A stretch of DNA of 30,124 nucleotides from a virus: the IMG/VR virus record IMGVR_UViG_3300009083_000317, positions 1 through 30,124 of that record. The stretch is one strand, 5' to 3'. Under the pieces are notes generated by a model, which searched no databases, was not told the origin of the DNA, and saw nothing but the letters and a program-made list of their open reading frames with translations. Below, in pieces: positions 5,452-18,873 of the stretch; position 1 is the stretch's first letter, and every line of letters starts with the position of its first letter. The position numbers and the translations under genes were made by a program.

Positions 5452-5462
5452 TTTTTCGCAGT

Positions 5463-5501
5463 TGTCACACGGTTTGTGACATTGTCACACGAGTTGTGAC
5501 G
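5463..5501. promoter_or_regulatory. Two tandem operator-like dyads (TGTCACA-N5-TGTGACA)
   Basis: Site 1 is TGTCACA (5463-5469), CGGTT, TGTGACA (5475-5481), a perfect 7-bp inverted repeat. Site 2 is TGTCACA (5483-5489), CGAGT, TGTGACG (5495-5501), perfect over 6 bp. Centres are 20 bp apart, about two helical turns, so dimers would sit on the same DNA face. The pair lies between the regulator-like gene ending at 5451 and the sigma-factor gene at 5635, where an early promoter is expected. Which protein binds is unknown; the 394-aa or 136-aa proteins are candidates. Confidence 0.8.
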
Positions 5502-5606
5502 CCTTGGCTGCGAGGCCGTGAGGCACACAACCTGGCAGTCGCAACATGTTGTTCTAGCGGCAGTTAGCCGCAGCATGTCGCCTACATCCACCCCGGTACT
5601 TTCGGG

Positions 5607-5635
5607 TGGCTGCCTCCGGACCTCGGAGGCAGCCA
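5607..5635 (+). promoter_or_regulatory. 12-bp perfect hairpin masking the sigma-factor ribosome site
   Basis: TGGCTGCCTCCG (5607-5618), loop GACCT (5619-5623) and CGGAGGCAGCCA (5624-5635) form a perfect 12-bp stem. The 3' arm contains the Shine-Dalgarno GGAGG (5625-5629) and reaches the A of the start codon at 5635. In mRNA this would sequester the initiation site, pointing to translational control by a protein, RNA or temperature. It could also be a DNA operator. Confidence 0.8.
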
Positions 5636-6303
5636 TGTCAAACGCCCAGACGAAAGAGTTCGTCCTTACCGACTACGCCAAGAACCTGATTGAGTTCAAG
5701 GCACGGCAGCTCTCGCGGCAGCGGGGGTTCGGCCGCACGGACCAGGATGATCTGGAGCAGAGGCTGTGGTTGGCGGTCGTCAATCAAGCGGATCGCTTCG
5801 ATCCATCTCGTGCTTCGCTGGACACCTTCATCGACCGGGTGGTGAACACCGCCGTGGCAAGGATCCTGCGGGACCGGGAGCGGCGGGTGCGGCCCCAAGG
5901 TCCCGAGACGGTCTCGCTGGATTTCGTTTCCAAAGACAACGACCGCAGCAAGCAACCTCTGGCGGCTGAGATCACAGAGAACGATCTCCAACGTCGCCTC
6001 GGTGTCGAGCGCCGCGATGAAGTCGCGGATCGCGAGCAGGCGGAAGCCGTCGCTGACGCATTGGGCCACATGCTGCCGGAGGTCTACGACGTGTGCCGGC
6101 GCGTGATGGCCGGCAGCATCTCTTCGGCCGCCAGCGACTTGGAGACATCTCGCCGCCAGGTTCGCAAGGCGCTTGCCGCCGCGCAGCCCTTCTTGGAGGA
6201 ATCCGGATTCGCCGCTCGGCAATTGCCGGACAGCAGCGCCCGCCGCGGCATAGGTAACAGATGCGGCCAACACAGAACGCGCCGCCGAGAGGAGCATCCC
6301 TGA
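5635..6303 (+). CDS. Phage-encoded sigma-70-family RNA polymerase sigma factor
   Basis: 222-aa sigma factor of the small (region 2 plus region 4) class, expected to redirect host RNA polymerase to phage promoters. Region 2 is seen at about residues 35-85: DDLEQRLWLAVVNQADRFDP, then a SLDTFIDRVV helix and an Arg-rich ARILRDRERR end. Region 4-like helices lie at about 135-190, with an HTH-like SISSAASDLETSRRQVRKAL. The linker between them is acidic and polar. The start at 5635 is chosen because GGAGG sits 5 bases upstream; the reading open further upstream has poor composition. It heads the early operon, so it may drive early or late genes. The hairpin over its start suggests tight control of its translation. 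Confidence 0.85.
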   Translation: MSNAQTKEFVLTDYAKNLIEFKARQLSRQRGFGRTDQDDLEQRLWLAVVNQADRFDPSRASLDTFIDRVVNTAVARILRDRERRVRPQGPETVSLDFVSKDNDRSKQPLAAEITENDLQRRLGVERRDEVADREQAEAVADALGHMLPEVYDVCRRVMAGSISSAASDLETSRRQVRKALAAAQPFLEESGFAARQLPDSSARRGIGNRCGQHRTRRREEHP

Positions 6304-7592: not shown

Positions 7593-9428
7593 ATGAACGT
7601 CACGCTGCCAACCCAGCGCACCAAGCCCGTCGTGGATCTGGGCAAACAGACGATCCTGCTGTATTCCGCGCCCAAGTTAGGCAAGTGTCTCGGCGGCGAC
7701 ACGCTCGTCTACGATCCGACCAGCGGACTGCCGACGAGGCTGGCGGACCTAGTGGCTTCGCAGTCCGGTTCCGTGCTCACGATGGGGATCGCGGGAGTAT
7801 TGCAGGCAGCGATCCCTTCCAAGTTCATCGAGCACCCTGTCGACCAGTTGTTCCGTGTGACGACCCAGACGGGACGAATCATCGAGGCCACCGGTCAGCA
7901 CCCATTTCTCACACGTGAGGGTTGGAAGCCACTCGCCGGCCTGACCGTGAATGATCGGGTCGGCGTGGTCGCCGAATATAAGTCGCTGTTCGGCGAGACG
8001 GTGACGGACCACAACTTTCTGAAAATCTTGGCGTATTTGATCGCCGACGGATCGCTCGCCCAAACCAGCCCGGTGTTCACGAAGACTGACCTGGAAGTCC
8101 GGGAGGACTTCGAGCAGGCGGTGGAGGCGGTTGGCGATGACTTCGTGGAGTTTGATAACGATCGCGGGATCACCCACGTTCGTGTCAAGGGACGTCGCGC
8201 GGCAAAAAACAATGTTCTGCGGTTCATTCGTGAGGTTGGACTCGACGGACTACGGTCGGCGGAGAAATTCATTCCTGAATTCGTCTTCAGCTTGAAGCGC
8301 GAAAGGCTCGCGCTGTTCCTGAACCGACTGTTCACCTGCGATGGCAGTGTCGAGCGGAAGCTGATTTCCTACAGCTCCACGTCGATCCACATGGTTCGAC
8401 AGATTCAGCATCTCTTGCTGCGGTTCGGCATCGTGAGCGTCATCCGGGATCGATACCTCGAGGGGAAGCTGTATGGCGCCGAGCTCTACATTGCGGGCAA
8501 AGACGATATTCTCCGCTTTCTCGATGACATCGGAGTCATCGGCGCGAAGCAGATTGCGGCCGAACGCCTCCGTGAAGCCCTGTACCAGGTGCGCTGCAAG
8601 GGAACGCAGCTTGACCGTCACGGCAACATGCTGTTCGACCGCATTCGCAGCATTGAGCCGCTGGGCGTCGAGCCGGTGTTTGACCTGACTATCCCTGAGA
8701 CCCACAACTTTATCGCCAACGACTTCGTTGTTCACAACTCGACCTTCTCCAGCCAATTTCCCGAGGCCATCTTCTTCGAATGCGAGCCGGGCCTCAGTCA
8801 CCTGGAAGTCTTCAAGGTCCCGACGTACACGTGGGACGATTTCTTGGCGGCCTGCAAGCTTGTCGCGCAGGGCAATCACCCCTTCAAGACGATCGTGATC
8901 GACACGGCCGACAACGCCTTCAAGTTCTGCAGCGAGCACGTCTGCGGGAAGCACGGCATCGAATACGAAGGCGACATGGGGCATGGCAAAGGCTGGGCGC
9001 TCGTGAAGAACGAGTGGCATCGCGTCCTCACGCGGCTGGCGAGCCTGCCCTACGGACTCGTGCTGATCTCGCATGCCCAGGACAAGACGATCGAAACACG
9101 CACCGGCGAATTCACAAAGACCCAGCCGAGTCTGCCGGACCGAGCCCGCAATGTGGTGCTTGGGCTCGTGGACATGATCCTGTATTGCGAAGCCATCCCC
9201 CGCAAAGATGCCGCCGGCAACGTCACCATTGATCGCGTTATGCGCACCAAGCCGCATCCGACCTACGAGGCCGGCGACCGCACCGGCCGCCTGCCGGAGG
9301 TCTTGCCCCTGGACTACGAGGCCTTCGTGAAGGCCTTTACCTCCGCCGCCCCTGAAAGCACTCCCGGCAAGGGCACGGCGGAACGCACCAAGCCGGGAAG
9401 CACCCCTGAGGAGAAGAACCGCAAATGA
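7593..9428 (+). CDS. Sak4-like RecA-fold ATPase interrupted by a P-loop intein
   Basis: 611-aa precursor. Removing the intein (residues 32-382) leaves a 260-aa ATPase of the phage nucleotide-binding (AAA_24, Sak4) type, thought to promote strand annealing or exchange together with phage SSB. The Walker A is split: the N-extein ends SAPKLGK and the C-extein starts STFSSQF, giving APKLGKST after splicing. A Walker B is visible in KTIVIDTADNAF. Later blocks include ALVKNEWHRV and GLVLISHAQDK. The C-terminal 30 residues are Pro/Lys/Thr-rich and look disordered. The start follows AGGAG (7582-7586). The stop overlaps the next ATG (ATGA). Without splicing the nucleotide site cannot form, so ATPase activity depends on splicing. 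Confidence 0.93.
   Translation: MNVTLPTQRTKPVVDLGKQTILLYSAPKLGKCLGGDTLVYDPTSGLPTRLADLVASQSGSVLTMGIAGVLQAAIPSKFIEHPVDQLFRVTTQTGRIIEATGQHPFLTREGWKPLAGLTVNDRVGVVAEYKSLFGETVTDHNFLKILAYLIADGSLAQTSPVFTKTDLEVREDFEQAVEAVGDDFVEFDNDRGITHVRVKGRRAAKNNVLRFIREVGLDGLRSAEKFIPEFVFSLKRERLALFLNRLFTCDGSVERKLISYSSTSIHMVRQIQHLLLRFGIVSVIRDRYLEGKLYGAELYIAGKDDILRFLDDIGVIGAKQIAAERLREALYQVRCKGTQLDRHGNMLFDRIRSIEPLGVEPVFDLTIPETHNFIANDFVVHNSTFSSQFPEAIFFECEPGLSHLEVFKVPTYTWDDFLAACKLVAQGNHPFKTIVIDTADNAFKFCSEHVCGKHGIEYEGDMGHGKGWALVKNEWHRVLTRLASLPYGLVLISHAQDKTIETRTGEFTKTQPSLPDRARNVVLGLVDMILYCEAIPRKDAAGNVTIDRVMRTKPHPTYEAGDRTGRLPEVLPLDYEAFVKAFTSAAPESTPGKGTAERTKPGSTPEEKNRK
7686..8738 (+). mobile_element. Intein with LAGLIDADG homing endonuclease
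   Basis: In-frame 351-aa protein intron. The N-terminal splice residue is C32 (CLGGDTLVYDP, block A). Block B shows TGQHPF. A LAGLIDADG-type homing endonuclease has its two acidic motifs in LKILAYLIADGSL (about 143-155) and LALFLNRLFTCDGSV (about 239-253). Block F is the VFDLTIPETHNFIANDF segment. Block G ends H381-N382, followed by S383 as the +1 nucleophile. All expected splicing residues (Cys, TxxH, His-Asn, Ser) and both endonuclease acids are present, so both splicing and homing look intact. Confidence 0.95.
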
Positions 9429-10481: not shown

Positions 10482-10538
10482 CGCCTAACGTCGGCGGCGC
10501 ACAGTGATCCCTATTCGGAGATGCGGAGACTCTCACTC

Positions 10539-11288
10539 ATGCAACTGAATCTACACCAAATTCGCACAGACGGCGGCACACAGCCGCGTGCCGCACTGCA
10601 CCAGGACGTGATCCTGGAATACCAAGAGCAGATGGAGGCGGGCATAGCGTTTCCGTCGCCGACGGTGTTCTTCGACGGCCAGGAGTATTGGCTGGCTGAC
10701 GGTTTTCATCGGCACGCCGCCGCGGCGGGCGCGTTTCCCGGCAAGCCGATCGAATGCGAGGTGCGGCAAGGCACCCAGGGGGATGCTCAGTGGTTCAGCT
10801 ACAGCGCGAATCAGAGCCACGGCCTACGGCGGTCCAACGAAGACAAGCAGCGTGCAGTGCGGGCGGCCCTTGCGCATCCCAAGGCAGCCACGCTGAGCAA
10901 TATACAACTTGCCCAGCACTGTGGAGTCGATGAAGGGACCGTACGAAAGTACCGTCAAAACGCATCCTCGGAATTTCCGAAGATAGCCACCCGACAGGTT
11001 ACGCGTGGCGGAACAACCTACCAGCAGAATACGGCCAATATCGGCCAGGGCCGGCGTCAGGCCGCCGAAGCCCGCAAGCCTCGGCAGCAGTTCGGCGGCA
11101 TCTCTCCCCGAGCCCATCATCCGGTTCGGGAATGCTCCAGCCCCTACCCGGCGAAAACCGCGCTCGAACTCCCTCATGACGCGGAGATGGGGGCCCGCAC
11201 GCTGATCAGCGTCTTTGACCTGCCATATCTCCAAAAGCTTGTGAACGTCTTGACCCATTACCTGTCCCAACAAGGAGCCGAAGAATGA
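10539..11288 (+). CDS. ParB/sulfiredoxin-fold protein with HTH
   Basis: 249-aa ParB N-terminal-domain protein. The nuclease/CTPase-like ParB box is seen at about residues 1-90, with WLADGFHRHAAAA around 52-64 and a YSANQSHGL block near 93. A helix-turn-helix follows at about 115-142 (LSNIQLAQHCGVDEGTVRKYR). The remainder (145-249) is Arg/Gln-rich, then helical. I prefer the ATG at 10539, which has GGAG 10 bases upstream; the ATG at 10521 sits directly against its ribosome site. Phage ParB-like proteins can be partition, transcription or nuclease-related factors. No parA is present, so classical partition is unlikely. The stop overlaps the next start (ATGA). Confidence 0.8.
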   Translation: MQLNLHQIRTDGGTQPRAALHQDVILEYQEQMEAGIAFPSPTVFFDGQEYWLADGFHRHAAAAGAFPGKPIECEVRQGTQGDAQWFSYSANQSHGLRRSNEDKQRAVRAALAHPKAATLSNIQLAQHCGVDEGTVRKYRQNASSEFPKIATRQVTRGGTTYQQNTANIGQGRRQAAEARKPRQQFGGISPRAHHPVRECSSPYPAKTALELPHDAEMGARTLISVFDLPYLQKLVNVLTHYLSQQGAEE

Positions 11289-12151: not shown

Positions 12152-12411
12152 TGAATCCAGCAGACACTCAACCCGACACCGTGGAGCATCCACGGCATTA
12201 CACGTTCGGCGGCATTGAAGTGATCGATGCCATCGAAGCGTGGGAACTCGGCTTCCATCTGGGCAACGTCGTGAAGTACGTGGCCCGCGCTGCGCATAAG
12301 GGACGCTTTCTCGAAGACCTGCGGAAGGCCCGCTGGTACCTCGACCGGCAGATCGAACTCGCCTCGCAACAACCAGCGACACCGGGCACGAAGGCCCAGG
12401 AGGAGCAATGA
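12151..12411 (+). CDS. DUF3310 family protein
   Basis: 86-aa member of the DUF3310 phage family. The hallmark VEHPRHYTFGGIEVIDAIEA (residues 11-30) and LGNVVKYVARAAHKG (about 37-51) are both present, followed by the usual helical LRKARWYLDRQIE. The family is common in phage replication regions and has been annotated as a nucleotide-kinase-like or replication accessory protein, but its biochemical role is not settled. It starts within TAATG of the upstream stop and overlaps the primase start, so it is embedded in the coupled replication block. Confidence 0.9.
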   Translation: MNPADTQPDTVEHPRHYTFGGIEVIDAIEAWELGFHLGNVVKYVARAAHKGRFLEDLRKARWYLDRQIELASQQPATPGTKAQEEQ

Positions 12412-14957
12412 GCGCCTCGGTCATGGCGGACCTGTCTCTGATTTTGCAACACACGCCCGTCTGCCTGCGCGAGCGTGCGCAGTGGGTCGCGTGGAAAGCG
12501 GTCGAGCGCGACGGCAAGCAAACCAAAGTGCCTATCAATCCGCACAGCGGCGAACTGGCCAAGGCGAACGACAAAGCAACCTGGGGCACGTTCGATCAGG
12601 CTCTTGCTGCTTGCCGAATGCATCCAGGTTTGTGCGGCGTCGGCTTCGTGTTTTCCGCCGACGATCCGTACTGCGGTGTCGATCTAGATGACTGCATCGA
12701 TCCCGCGACCGGTGCAATCAAGAGTTGGGCTGCCGAGTTCATCGAGCAACTCGCCAGCTACAGCGAGATCAGTCCGTCGGGCAGCGGCGTGAAGGTGTTC
12801 GTCAAAGCCAACAAGCCTGGCCGACGCTGCCGCAAGCGCTACGCCGATGGCGAAGTCGAGATTTACGACAACGATCGGTTCTTCACGGTCACGGGACAAC
12901 GCCTCGAGACGACGTCTAGCGAGGTCGAACTGCGGCAGGAACAACTCGACTCCGTCTATCAAACGGTGTTCGGCGACGATGACCGCGTCAACGGACAAGC
13001 CGTGCGGACATCGCCAACTGGTCCTCGGCCGAGCGCCAATGGGCATGCCCAACTCAGCGACAACGAGATCATTCAGTTAGCCTCGCAGCAGCGGCGGAGC
13101 GGAGCCAAGTTCGCCGCCCTGTGGTCCGGCGACTGGAACTCGCATTTCAACTCGGCCAGCGAAGCCGACTCCTCGGTGGTATTCACCTTGGCCTTCTACA
13201 CCAAGGATGCGGCGCAGATTGATCGGCTGTTTCGTTGCTCGGGGCTGATGCGGGCCAAGTGGGATGAACGGCATGGCGAAGAGACCTATGGCGAATCGAC
13301 GGTGGGTAAGGCGCTCGGCAAGGTCACCCAGCAGTATGAACCGCGAGGCAAACCTGGACGGCCGAAGACACCACGTCCACGAGCCTCGCCGCCCAACAAT
13401 TCGGGACTCCCTTCCATCCTGCTCTGCGATACGCAACTGAATGACCTCACTGCTCAGGCGCTCGCAGCGGTGGCGCTGGCCAACTCACCTCCCACTGTAT
13501 TCGTACGTGGCGGCACGCTGGCTCGAGTCACACGCGATGAGAACGGGCAGCCCAAGATTGAGGCCTTCGACCGGACGCGCGTGCGGTGTCGCCTCAGCGA
13601 AGTGGCTAATTTCTTCACGCTCCGCAAGGGTGAGGATGGCTACGAACCGGTGGGTGCAAACCCGCCGCTCGCGCTCGCAGAGAACGTGTTGGCGCTCGGC
13701 AACTGGAATCTGCCGGCGCTGGCGGGAATTGCGCGAGCGCCGATTCTACGTAGCGATGGCACGATCTGCACGCAGCCTGGCTACGATCCGACCTCTCGAC
13801 TCATGTACTGCCCTGACCCCGGGCTGACGCTTACCCCGATTCCAGACAATCCCGACAGCGACGAAGTCCAGGCATGCGTGGACATCCTGCTCGACCTCAT
13901 CAGCGACTTTCCTTTCGCGGACGCCCCCAGCCGCGCCAACGCCCTGGCGATCCTGTTCTCGACGCTGATGCGTCCCGTGATTTCAGGGCACATCCCGCTG
14001 GCGGTCATCGACGCACCGGTGCAGGGAACTGGCAAAACACTGCTCGTTACAACGCTGGCCTCGATTGCCGTCGGAAGCGTCGCCTCCGAATCGATCCCCG
14101 CTCAGCAGAACGACGACGAATGGCGGAAGAAGATCACCTCGATCCTGCTCTCCGCGGCGCCGTTCGTGCTTCTCGACAATATCCCAGACAACACGACCAT
14201 TGACTCGCCCTCGTTGGCGGCAACGCTCACGTCGAGCGAGTGGTCCGATCGGCTACTGGGTCGCAACGATACGATCCGATTGCCGGCCCGTGCCGTGTGG
14301 GCGGCCACCGGCAACAATCTCCGCGTGACCGGCGACATGCCCCGGCGCAGTTACAGCATCCGGCTCGATGCAAACGCCGAGCGACCGTGGGAGCGAACAG
14401 GCTTCCACATCCAAGGCCTGCAGCAGCATGTGCTGGCTCATCGGGGCAATCTGCTGTCGGCAGCGCTGACCATCGTGCGAGCCTGGTATACGAATGGCAA
14501 ACCGCAAGCAAACGTCCCGATGCTCGGCAGCTTTGAGCAGTGGGCCAGCACCGTGGGGAGTGTACTGGCGTTTGCGGGGATCGAAGGGTTCTTGGGCAAC
14601 CTCGCGCAGACCCAGGTGGTACAGGATGACGACACCCGGCAATGGACGGCGTTCTTCGACGCCTGGTGGGGCGCGTTCGGAGCCAAAGGGGTCTCGGTCG
14701 AGGCGCTGTCGCAGCGGATTCTAGCCCACGGCGATATTGCCGATTCAGCGATTCCCGACATCATCACCTTGAATCGGGATCGTGGAGAGGGAGCGCTCCG
14801 GCGTTCACTTGGCCGACATCTTTCGAGATTGAACGGTCGCATCTACAGCGGCCGCAAGCTGCGCACGCTCGGTGAGGACAAGCATCGACATGTTCGCGTC
14901 TGGCATCTCCAGGAAGCAGATGCGGCGCCGGAAAGGAGGCTCTTCGATGATCAGTGA
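12408..14957 (+). CDS. Primase-polymerase / SF3-like helicase replication protein
   Basis: 849-aa replication initiator-type protein. The N-terminal PrimPol domain (about 15-185) shows WVAWKAVERDGKQTKVPINP, the metal-binding D92-x-D94 in CGVDLDDCID, the SPSGSGVKVF block (122-131) with K129 where many homologues have histidine, and the DNDRFFTVTGQ strand. A linker region follows (about 225-400). The helicase/ATPase region has Walker A at 538-545 (VQGTGKTL, K543), an acidic LLDNIPDN block near 592, and WAATGNN as the sensor-like segment. Primase plus helicase in one chain is usual in phages and plasmids that start their own replication. An ideal ribosome site AGGAGGAG (12397-12404) precedes the ATG, so high expression is expected. 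The gene-free iteron region follows directly. Confidence 0.9.
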   Translation: MSASVMADLSLILQHTPVCLRERAQWVAWKAVERDGKQTKVPINPHSGELAKANDKATWGTFDQALAACRMHPGLCGVGFVFSADDPYCGVDLDDCIDPATGAIKSWAAEFIEQLASYSEISPSGSGVKVFVKANKPGRRCRKRYADGEVEIYDNDRFFTVTGQRLETTSSEVELRQEQLDSVYQTVFGDDDRVNGQAVRTSPTGPRPSANGHAQLSDNEIIQLASQQRRSGAKFAALWSGDWNSHFNSASEADSSVVFTLAFYTKDAAQIDRLFRCSGLMRAKWDERHGEETYGESTVGKALGKVTQQYEPRGKPGRPKTPRPRASPPNNSGLPSILLCDTQLNDLTAQALAAVALANSPPTVFVRGGTLARVTRDENGQPKIEAFDRTRVRCRLSEVANFFTLRKGEDGYEPVGANPPLALAENVLALGNWNLPALAGIARAPILRSDGTICTQPGYDPTSRLMYCPDPGLTLTPIPDNPDSDEVQACVDILLDLISDFPFADAPSRANALAILFSTLMRPVISGHIPLAVIDAPVQGTGKTLLVTTLASIAVGSVASESIPAQQNDDEWRKKITSILLSAAPFVLLDNIPDNTTIDSPSLAATLTSSEWSDRLLGRNDTIRLPARAVWAATGNNLRVTGDMPRRSYSIRLDANAERPWERTGFHIQGLQQHVLAHRGNLLSAALTIVRAWYTNGKPQANVPMLGSFEQWASTVGSVLAFAGIEGFLGNLAQTQVVQDDDTRQWTAFFDAWWGAFGAKGVSVEALSQRILAHGDIADSAIPDIITLNRDRGEGALRRSLGRHLSRLNGRIYSGRKLRTLGEDKHRHVRVWHLQEADAAPERRLFDDQ

Positions 14958-14985
14958 AGTCACAGCCCGTACATCACCGGGAGGC

Positions 14986-15070
14986 GTACAGCGCTGCGCG
15001 CGCGGCACGTCCTACCGCTCTTCGGCGCGTAATGTACAGGCCGCTGTACGGTGCGCGCGCGCTGCTGTAC
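14986..15070. repeat. Nested inverted repeats with four GTACAG/CTGTAC words
   Basis: GTACAG occurs at 14986-14991 and 15034-15039, and its complement CTGTAC at 15044-15049 and 15065-15070. The inner pair makes a perfect 6-bp dyad around GCCG. The outer pair extends into GC-alternating arms (GCGCGCGCGG and GCGCGCGCGC) that can pair imperfectly over about 20 bases. This could form a cruciform or serve as four half-sites for one protein. Confidence 0.6.
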
Positions 15071-15161
15071 ACGATCCTCGGTCGCACGTCGTGTTTTGGT
15101 CGCAAAGTATTGGGCAGCATCACCTTTATGTAAAAAGCTATGGTGTCGAGGCCGAAAACCT

Positions 15162-15380
15162 TAACCTCGCTAACCGCGCACTTTGCGAGGTTACGATTTT
15201 GGCTAACCTCGCCGAGAAAAGTGAGTCTCGCCAACCACTTACATCTTTCTGCGAGGTTAGCGAGGTTATTTCCCCGCTTCGCACGTACGCGGGCGCGCAC
15301 GCACGCACACGCGCAGGAGACAACGCGCAACCAAATAGAACCGGGCTAAAAATAACCTCGCACAACCTCGCTAACCTCGC
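15162..15380. repeat. Iteron array, 9-bp TAACCTCGC on both strands
   Basis: Exact copies on the plus strand are at 15162-15170, 15204-15212, 15353-15361 and 15372-15380. Exact minus-strand copies (GCGAGGTTA) are at 15185-15193, 15251-15259 and 15260-15268. A one-mismatch copy, CAACCTCGC, is at 15363-15371, and a decayed one starts at 15171. Several are directly abutting (15251-15268; 15353-15380). Such density of a 9-mer in 220 bases is far beyond chance and fits binding sites for a replication initiator, partition or regulator protein. Confidence 0.85.
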
Positions 15381-15562
15381 AGAGCAATCTGCGTCGCGCG
15401 CCGCTGCCGATCCACAACGGCGACTCGAACACGCCGTTCGCCCGCGTCGGCGACATTGCACCACGTGGCCCCAACTTCCCAAGTCACTGACGAACGCGGC
15501 ACGCGCCACCCGTTGGCCCACGGCGCGTCTCTACAAGGTAATTGCGCGAACGGAGGCCACAA

Positions 15563-16388: not shown

Positions 16389-17702
16389 ATGAAGATCGAG
16401 CTCTGGAAGCTATCCGAGATCAAGCCATATCCGAACAACCCTCGCATCAACGATGACGCGGTTGAGGCCGTGGCGGCGTCGATCCGTGAATTCGGCTTCC
16501 GGCAGCCGATCGTGGTCGACGCCGAGGGCGTGATCATCTGTGGTCACACGCGGTACAAGGCGGCGATGAAGTTGGGCCTGGAGAAAGCGCCGGTCCATGT
16601 CGCCAAGGACCTGTCGCCGGCGCAGATCAAGGCCTACCGCATCGCCGACAAGCGCGCCGCCGAGAACGCCACTTGGGACTTCGACCTGCTGCCCATCGAA
16701 CTGGGCGAGTTGCAGGCGATGGATTTCGACCTGGGACTGTTGGGTTTCGATGCGGATGAGCTGACCAAGATCCTCGCACCCGCCGGCAACGAAGGGCTGA
16801 CCGACCCCGACGATATTCCCGCGCCCCCGGACGCGGCCACCACGCAACCGGGCGACCTGTGGGTTCTCGGAAACCACCGGCTCCTGTGCGGCGACAGCAG
16901 CAAGCCGGCAGACGTGGACCGCCTGTTGGCTGGCGCTGTGGTTCATCTTGCGAATACAGATCCGCCGTACAATGTGAAGGTCGAACCGCGGTCGAACAAC
17001 GCGATCGCGGCTGGCCTGTCGTCGTTCGCTGGGACCACGCACCACCAGGGACTCGACCTGGCCCGTCATCCTGAGAAATCGAAACCTACGCAGAAGAAGC
17101 TCCGCCCCAAGGACCGGCCCCTCGCGAACGACTTCGTCTCCGACGAGGAGTTCGACCGCCTGCTCGCGGCCTGGTTCGGCAACATCGCCCGCGTGCTGAT
17201 CCCGGGCGGCGGATTCTATATCTGGGGCGGCTACGCGAACCTCGGCAACTACCCGCCTTTCCTCAAGAGCAGCGGGCTGTACTTCAGCCAGGGGATCGTG
17301 TGGGACAAGCAACATCCTGTTCTCACTCGCAAAGATTTTATGGGGTCTTTTGAGCTCGCATTCTATGGCTGGCGTGAGGGAGCGGCGCACCGCTACTTCG
17401 GCCCCAGCAATGCCCGCGACCTGTGGCACGTGAAGAAGGTGAACCCGCAGAGCATGGTTCACCTCACCGAGAAGCCGGTGGAACTGGCTCGCTTGGCCAT
17501 CGAGTACTCGTCACAGCCAGGCGAGAACGTGCTGGACCTCTTCGGCGGGAGCGGGTCGACGCTGATCGCCTGCGAGCAGACGGGGCGCAGGGCGTTCCTG
17601 CTGGAGCTCGACCCGCTGTATTGCGACGTGATCGTGCAGAGGTTCGAGAAGTTCACCGGGCAGAAGGCCGAACGGATCGTGGCCGAGGAGGTGGGAGCAT
17701 GA
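16389..17702 (+). CDS. ParB-domain DNA methyltransferase (N4/N6 amino)
   Basis: 437-aa fusion. A ParB/sulfiredoxin-type domain occupies about residues 1-125, with PYPNNPRINDDAVEAVA, the IICGHTRYKAA box and KAYRIADKRA. It is joined to an adenine/cytosine amino-methyltransferase (about 155-430). The catalytic motif is D191-P-P-Y194 (NTDPPYN) and the AdoMet-binding FGGSGST lies at 385-391. Motif IV precedes motif I, so it is of the beta-type order. HLTEKPVELA near 358 is the usual substrate-side block. The ribosome site GGAG is at 16375-16378. The phage probably methylates its own DNA against host restriction or alters regulation; the target sequence cannot be read from the protein. It overlaps the DUF1937 gene by 4 bases. 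Confidence 0.93.
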   Translation: MKIELWKLSEIKPYPNNPRINDDAVEAVAASIREFGFRQPIVVDAEGVIICGHTRYKAAMKLGLEKAPVHVAKDLSPAQIKAYRIADKRAAENATWDFDLLPIELGELQAMDFDLGLLGFDADELTKILAPAGNEGLTDPDDIPAPPDAATTQPGDLWVLGNHRLLCGDSSKPADVDRLLAGAVVHLANTDPPYNVKVEPRSNNAIAAGLSSFAGTTHHQGLDLARHPEKSKPTQKKLRPKDRPLANDFVSDEEFDRLLAAWFGNIARVLIPGGGFYIWGGYANLGNYPPFLKSSGLYFSQGIVWDKQHPVLTRKDFMGSFELAFYGWREGAAHRYFGPSNARDLWHVKKVNPQSMVHLTEKPVELARLAIEYSSQPGENVLDLFGGSGSTLIACEQTGRRAFLLELDPLYCDVIVQRFEKFTGQKAERIVAEEVGA

Positions 17703-18528: not shown

Positions 18529-18576
18529 GATTCGTCTCCTCGGTCTTGGATGCGATGGGGTGGCTGCCATCATCAG

Positions 18577-18597
18577 GCGGCGGGAACCACCCGCCGC
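18577..18597. repeat. Intercistronic hairpin between the two minus-strand genes
   Basis: GCGGCGGG (18577-18584), loop AACCA (18585-18589) and CCCGCCGC (18590-18597) form a perfect 8-bp GC stem. A second short stem (ACCCGC with GCGGGT) lies next to it at 18600-18616. There is no T-run. It may be an RNA-stabilising or attenuating structure that sets the ratio of the two proteins. Confidence 0.5.
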
Positions 18598-18621
18598 GAC
18601 CCGCACGCGGGCGGGTTTCGG

Positions 18622-18873
18622 CTACAGCCCCAGGTCCTCCATCAGGCGGTTGTGCTCTTCGGCCCCCAGCAGCGCGGTCAGCGTGTCGGCAAACCATTCG
18701 ACTTGCAGCAGCGCGTCGAGCGCGTCTTCGTTGGCGGGCTTATGGAACGCCGCCGGCTGCAAGAAGGCGATGATCGTGGCCACCGCCTCGGGCGAAAGGT
18801 TGTCCCGAATCACTTTCTCAAAGGCCGGCTGGTCAACCGCTCCGCTCATCCGGTCGTCGTTCTTCGTGTTCAT
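18622..18873 (-). CDS. Hypothetical acidic protein, 83 aa (minus strand)
   Basis: Not recognised. The minus-strand ATG at 18873 is preceded by AAGGAG at suitable spacing. The product is small, acidic and almost wholly helical, with LSPEAVATIIAFLQ (about residues 26-39), an EDALDALLQVEWFADTLTALL helix, and an EEHNRLMEDLGL end. It has no signal peptide or membrane segment. It is first in the two-gene minus-strand unit with the HARE-HTH protein. It could be a partner or antagonist of that DNA-binding protein, but no motif shows it. Confidence 0.7.
   Translation of the reverse strand: MNTKNDDRMSGAVDQPAFEKVIRDNLSPEAVATIIAFLQPAAFHKPANEDALDALLQVEWFADTLTALLGAEEHNRLMEDLGL

Follow-up and report, generated by a model that had tools for sequence, protein, structure and literature searches.

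Iteron origins lying directly downstream of a gene for an AEP primase and D5-type helicase are a known kind of replication origin. In the Staphylococcus aureus islands SaPI5 and SaPIbov1, the respective proteins PriRep1 and Rep represent an AEP primase fused to, or encoded beside, a self-loading hexameric helicase. According to PMC7581432, the C-terminal domain of SaPI Rep reads the multiple short iterons of the origin directly downstream of its own gene (citing Ubeda 2007), Cch2 also binds repeats downstream of its gene, and the origins of SaPI and SCC elements have been published at the corresponding place. ORF904 of the archaeal plasmid pRN1 unites a PrimPol, a helix-bundle, an SF3 helicase and a winged-helix initiator, and its origin, which is essential and lies just 3' of the gene, is described in PMC4234260 as a 100-nt stem-loop without iterons. 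The same source, citing earlier work, describes a primase, a helicase and a winged helix that binds origin repeats in the α protein of phage P4.

Two further cases come from phages. The polymerase of the Nitratiruptor phage NrS-1 also has a PrimPol and a helix-bundle domain; in PMC8718748, its mapped 8-nt recognition/start site is given as 5'-TTTGGTTA-3', and R249, K251 and Y261 of the helix-bundle are marked as key residues. The records of the Lactobacillus phages A2 and phiadh carry a rep_origin annotation that overlaps the end of the primase gene and sits immediately 3' of it, and a two-strand array is found there, consisting of TACGGGAGG in A2 (seven copies) and of AACTATGCA in phiadh (eight copies).

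The DNA considered here, referred to below as the window, is the whole of an IMG/VR viral record (G000) of 30124 bases and, being a viral record, comes without a host genome. Related loci are from Planctomycetota genomes, one of them (L242) lying inside a 7-Mb genome, and a serine recombinase encoded at 1-1563 suggests that the phage is temperate. The replication block encodes, in order, a PD-(D/E)XK nuclease, a Sak4-like ATPase with an intein, DUF669, RusA, a ParB-like protein (10521-11288), phrog_5931, DUF3310 and the primase-helicase, followed by the array that is the subject of this report. A fusion protein joining a ParB domain to a DNA methyltransferase is encoded further on, at 16389-17702 on the plus strand.

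The primase-helicase (12408..14957, plus strand, 849 aa) consists of a PrimPol and helix-bundle region (aa 1-315), a D5/SF3-like AAA+ helicase and a C-terminal winged-helix-like domain. It matches the Pfam family NrS1-1_pol-like_HBD (PF22763) with E=1e-23 and 83.4 bits against a cut-off of 27.9, and aa 15-324 match the primases of NrS-1 (6a9w, E=2.6e-46) and SaPI5 (7ola, E=7.9e-44) by sequence. Judged by sequence and by model, it is a PrimPol of the NrS-1/SaPI5 type. In an AlphaFold2 model of aa 316-849 (pLDDT 80), the predicted fold is nearest to that of the SaPI5 primase-helicase 7ola (Z 13.2, 303 aligned residues, rmsd 5.0), followed by poxvirus D5/E5 and the NrS-1 CTR (Z 10.4). The predicted winged helix, aa 764-836, coded by 14697..14915 (plus strand), has the order helix-helix-helix-strand-strand in two AlphaFold2 models, and the C-terminal part folded alone reaches a pLDDT of 85. 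Searched by itself in Foldseek, this domain gave no significant match; many winged-helix proteins were listed for it only in the second look, by VIA, at Z 5-6.6. In the N-terminal half, NrS-1 R249, K251 and Y261 align with R282, K284 and Y294, and the SPS loop is present as S122-P123-S124 in the alignment. NrS-1 H115, which we take to be the catalytic motif-B histidine of AEP primases, is replaced by Lys129, which is invariant in six close relatives, and for this reason priming activity is not assured.

The resemblance to the SaPI5 protein is thus one of sequence in the N-terminal half and of fold in the C-terminal half, whereas the helicase half differs by sequence, the host is that of a planctomycete phage, and the SaPI origins are likened to the present one from published descriptions. 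With NrS-1, the N-terminal halves are 33% identical and the helicase halves are not alignable by BLAST. A2 and phiadh share a homologous N-terminal primase half and NTP-binding genes upstream, but differ in their iterons, in their Firmicute hosts and, in A2, in the helicase half. The likeness to P4 α is one of domain make-up and origin repeats, and its primase, unlike this one, is of the TOPRIM/DnaG type.

The initial annotation had proposed that a two-strand array of 9-bp iterons lies right after the primase-helicase gene, with some copies abutting and others inverted. The array is indeed there. Between 15162 and 15380, TAACCTCGC occurs nine times over the two strands, seven times exactly and twice with one mismatch, in the order + + - + - - and, after an 84-bp spacer, + + +. 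Iteron 1 (15162-15170, plus) is exact and abuts iteron 2 (15171-15179, plus), which reads TAACCGCGC with one mismatch; iterons 3 (15185-15193, minus) and 4 (15204-15212, plus) are exact, as are the abutting iterons 5 (15251-15259) and 6 (15260-15268), both on the minus strand. Beyond the spacer, iteron 7 (15353-15361) is exact, iteron 8 (15363-15371) reads CAACCTCGC with one mismatch, and iteron 9 (15372-15380), which abuts it, is exact, all three on the plus strand. With up to one mismatch allowed, the window contains 17 matches, against a chance expectation of 5.1 for its whole length, and 9 of the 17 fall within these 219 bp. The array is also the densest cluster of any single 9-mer in the window: it holds seven identical copies in 220 bp, and the maximum over 100 simulated second-order windows was four.

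The array begins 204 bp beyond the primase-helicase stop at 14957. Open frames run across the region; however, the window and the relative L004 are only 76% identical over it, with gaps of 1, 2 and 4 bp, and the region is therefore non-coding, in agreement with the earlier claim that it is free of genes. The same frame-breaking indels dispose of a repeat within a coding gene. Of the A/T-richer flanks that had been proposed, only the left one stood: 15085-15161, a candidate DNA-unwinding element, has 47% GC and includes the 50-mer with the least GC anywhere in the window (15092-15141, 38% GC against 62% for the window overall), whereas the right flank, 15381-15460, has 68% GC. The central spacer between the inverted iteron arms (15269-15352), which is kept but diverged in relatives, has a GC-rich part of alternating purine and pyrimidine and then an A/T-richer part at 15315-15352 (47% GC).

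A feature absent from the initial annotation is the dyad symmetry of the array. Two 20-bp arms, 15248-15267 and 15364-15383, are perfectly complementary around 96 bp, forming a dyad core (15248-15383) whose arms are formed by iterons 5-6 and 8-9. Folded as single-strand DNA, 15150-15392 gives z=-4.8, a strong fold that follows from the inversion of the iterons. In this the locus differs from pRN1, since the inverted arms are themselves made of iterons and more copies lie outside the stem. Also newly seen is a second small repeat family, GTACAG/CTGTAC, which occupies 14986-15070 between the primase stop and the array, with four copies at 14986, 15034, 15044 and 15065; the corresponding 450 bp of L018, L021, L058, L060, L062 and L063 contain 11-18 GTACA words. 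No terminator-like site was found in the array stretch, a nucleotide search of the non-coding region against phage records gave no match, and no clear switch in GC skew along the linear 30-kb fragment coincided with the array.

Absence of the repeats from close relatives had been named as grounds for doubting an origin; they are present. Among relatives with enough sequence, full-length proteins 57-88% identical to that of the window are followed directly 3' by a related two-strand array. In a six-sequence alignment, column identity is 0.79 in the iteron copies, 0.55 in the spacers and 0.45 in the flanks (p=6e-9), and conservation extends to single copies that lie apart from the hairpin. The iteron varies by lineage and is largely uniform inside each array, being, besides TAACCTCGC, TAACCTCGG in L058, TAACCCCGC in L059 and L170, of the TGCGGGGT type in L022 and TAACCCGG in L060. 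One candidate relative, L012, which had been found by the tandem-iteron pattern, was set aside as a GC-rich minisatellite behind a different gene and is unrelated.

A wider comparison covered 19 isolate phages whose primases are homologous, in which the 400 bp after the gene were scored against 40 shuffles. In 12 of the 19 a two-strand array there exceeded all 40 shuffles, and in 10 of these 12 it outranked all other windows of the locus. A2 and phiadh, with their rep_origin annotated at this position, are two of these phages. In the remaining seven, and in many distant homologues, the sequence directly 3' shows no clear array, and so a 3' array is not universal. Helicase-half homologues that do not have this PrimPol half nevertheless have arrays directly 3', such as nine copies of TACCCGCA in vir525. 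Among other helicase-half homologues, AAACTCACC or near variants are found directly 3', in 11-14 copies in L180, L183 and L187 and in four in L256; L065 and L255 have AGACTCACC.

We consider the most probable explanation, at roughly three chances in four, to be that a temperate planctomycete phage starts its replication at this array, with its own primase-helicase as initiator and the C-terminal winged helix of that protein binding the iterons. The proposal of a candidate phage origin has in this way gained strong comparative support from a position kept in relatives, from repeats more constrained than the spacers between them and from homologous origins at the same place; origin activity itself is what we infer from these comparisons. 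The course of initiation can be sketched by analogy with the SaPI, pRN1 and NrS-1 homologues. The winged helix of the primase-helicase would bind the 9-bp iterons, and the opposed clusters at 15251-15268 and 15353-15380 would seat two D5/SF3-type helicase rings facing opposite ways, the copies at 15162-15212 acting as helpers. Melting would probably take place either in the central spacer or in the A/T-rich segment at 15085-15161. The strands so exposed would receive their first primers from the N-terminal PrimPol and helix-bundle domain, and forks would depart in both directions.

Which part of the enzyme reads the repeats is approached through relatives in which its two halves have different partners. 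Where the N-terminal part is 57-65% identical and the C-terminal half is homologous, arrays of the GAGGTTA or GGGGTTA type are retained. Where the N-terminal part is 46-64% identical and the C-terminal half unrelated, GAGGTTA is absent from the 28 loci with enough sequence. An earlier wording, that the repeats of these N-terminal-only relatives are wholly unrelated, has been softened, as the group L024-L070 shows a GCGC-NN-GGTT dyad by eye. Beyond the close family, the iterons of C-terminal homologues are no closer to those of the window than are the iterons of N-terminal homologues (p=0.23, or p=0.43 with only loci above 50% GC). Taken together, the comparison suggests which part of the enzyme reads the repeats and, possibly, which single amino acid does so.

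That amino acid is His828, whose codon is 14889-14891 and which is placed at the tip, or turn, of the predicted wing. Among 17 full-length proteins of the planctomycete family, T at base 6 of the iteron goes with His828 in 12 of 12 and C with Lys or Asn in 5 of 5. Of 772 columns, it is the only one that fully separates T from C loci (mutual information 0.87, the next column having 0.57). The distant L017, 37% identical and with an array of TAACCTCGC, fits the pattern with base T and His. So does L242, found after the pattern had been stated, with base C and Lys; in its C-terminal tail it is similar to L019, and it therefore counts as an extra sample and not clearly as an extra change. On the best trees the base-6 label changes four to five times, only two of these on well-supported branches, and a sign test is not significant. 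With so few well-supported changes the covariation is only suggestive of a pairing between residue 828 and iteron base 6.

The strongest competitor, which we regard as improbable, also takes the array for an origin but has the iterons read mainly as single-strand templates by the N-terminal PrimPol and helix-bundle, in the manner of NrS-1, or by another phage or host protein. The alignment of the three key helix-bundle residues of NrS-1 with R282, K284 and Y294 speaks for such a reader, as does the start site of its polymerase, with which the window iteron, read as GCGAGGTTA, has GGTTA in common; GGTTA is likewise common to the iterons of the two phages, yet TTTGGTTA as a whole is absent from the window array, and the motif-B histidine is a lysine here. 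Against an N-terminal reader, among loci of equal identity in the N-terminal half (about 57-65%) the motif is kept only alongside a homologous C-terminal half, the sole covarying column falls in the C-terminal domain, arrays accompany helicase-only homologues too, and SaPI Rep uses its C-terminal domain, as described in PMC7581432.

NrS-1 itself (L138, AB746912.1) has 11 copies of GGTTACACT within the 330 bp that follow the primase gene, in a two-strand array directly 3' of it. Its TTTGGTTA lies on the minus strand at 17198, where one GGTTACACT copy abuts another and their junction makes up the site. According to PMC7102993 the genome has two copies of the 8-mer; we found one in bases 1-35740. 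An iteron array around the template site is not described in those parts of the NrS-1 literature that were covered. At 17055-17380 an annotated hypothetical gene, NRS1_29, overlaps the 11-copy array, and this gene call may be spurious.

Returning to the origin bound by its own winged helix, a broader formulation can be offered, tentatively and with rather more doubt than belief. It would hold that phages with a PrimPol and D5-type helicase generally have a two-strand array directly 3' of the gene, lineage-specific in its iteron and read by a code in the C-terminal winged helix, in which, for the planctomycete family, residue 828 sets base 6 (His for T, Lys or Asn for C). As TTTGGTTA is the junction of two iterons, the template preference of the NrS-1 polymerase and the origin would then be parts of one system. 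If such a rule were true, the origins of many uncultured phages would be predictable from sequence. Measured against the parts of the literature covered, what is new is the planctomycete family, the proposed pairing of base 6 with residue 828 and the placing of the NrS-1 template site within an iteron array. The locus would provide Planctomycetota phages with a small, defined candidate origin-initiator pair, with a domain and one residue named for a specificity swap.

Much less probable is that the array is a multi-site operator at which a repressor or activator controls early phage genes. A single sigma-70-like match lies just left of it on the minus strand (15134-15106), where shuffles expect 0.2. 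An operator fits poorly with the observation that the array travels with the primase-helicase gene while neighbouring genes differ, with its place 3' of the gene (arrays of six copies number none upstream and 11 downstream among 52 homologous loci, not all of which have upstream sequence) and with the annotated origins that homologous replicons carry at this place.

A parS-like partition site bound by a ParB-type protein seems very unlikely, in spite of the ParB-like protein and the ParB-methyltransferase encoded nearby. Both the primase-helicase and ParB-type proteins had been proposed as binders; the former is now the favoured, predicted one. Of the 19 array-family loci, searched with flanks limited to about 4 kb, one (L005) was found to encode the separate ParB-like protein, and the absence of this protein from nearly all array-bearing relatives within such flanks is the ground on which the partition site was rejected. 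The ParB-methyltransferase does not track the motif, its identity being mostly 61-78% in loci with differing arrays and 65-79% in loci with the same array. The fusion was found throughout the 19 array-family loci with two exceptions, each having short 3' sequence, and also in most N-terminal-only relatives.

Equally remote is a packaging, attachment or RNA element, or a coding repeat: the single-strand folding of the inverted arms (z -4.8), which might suggest one, is a consequence of inverted iterons, copies outside the hairpin are conserved as well, relatives differ by frame-breaking indels, the terminase gene is 3.6 kb away, and Rfam had no match in 14950-15560 even at E<=1, on which a structured RNA was rejected.

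Three further elements of the window were noted. The Sak4-like AAA_24 ATPase (7593-9428, plus strand) is split by an intein that carries a LAGLIDADG endonuclease domain. At 5462-5500, two tandem 20-bp palindromic units, TTGTCACACGAGTTGTGACA, operator-like in appearance, stand just upstream of an ORF (5518-6303) with weak sigma-factor matches. A type II hammerhead ribozyme (18558-18623, minus strand; Rfam RF02276, 51.3 bits against a gathering score of 37) lies in the interval that separates the replication block from the terminase gene.
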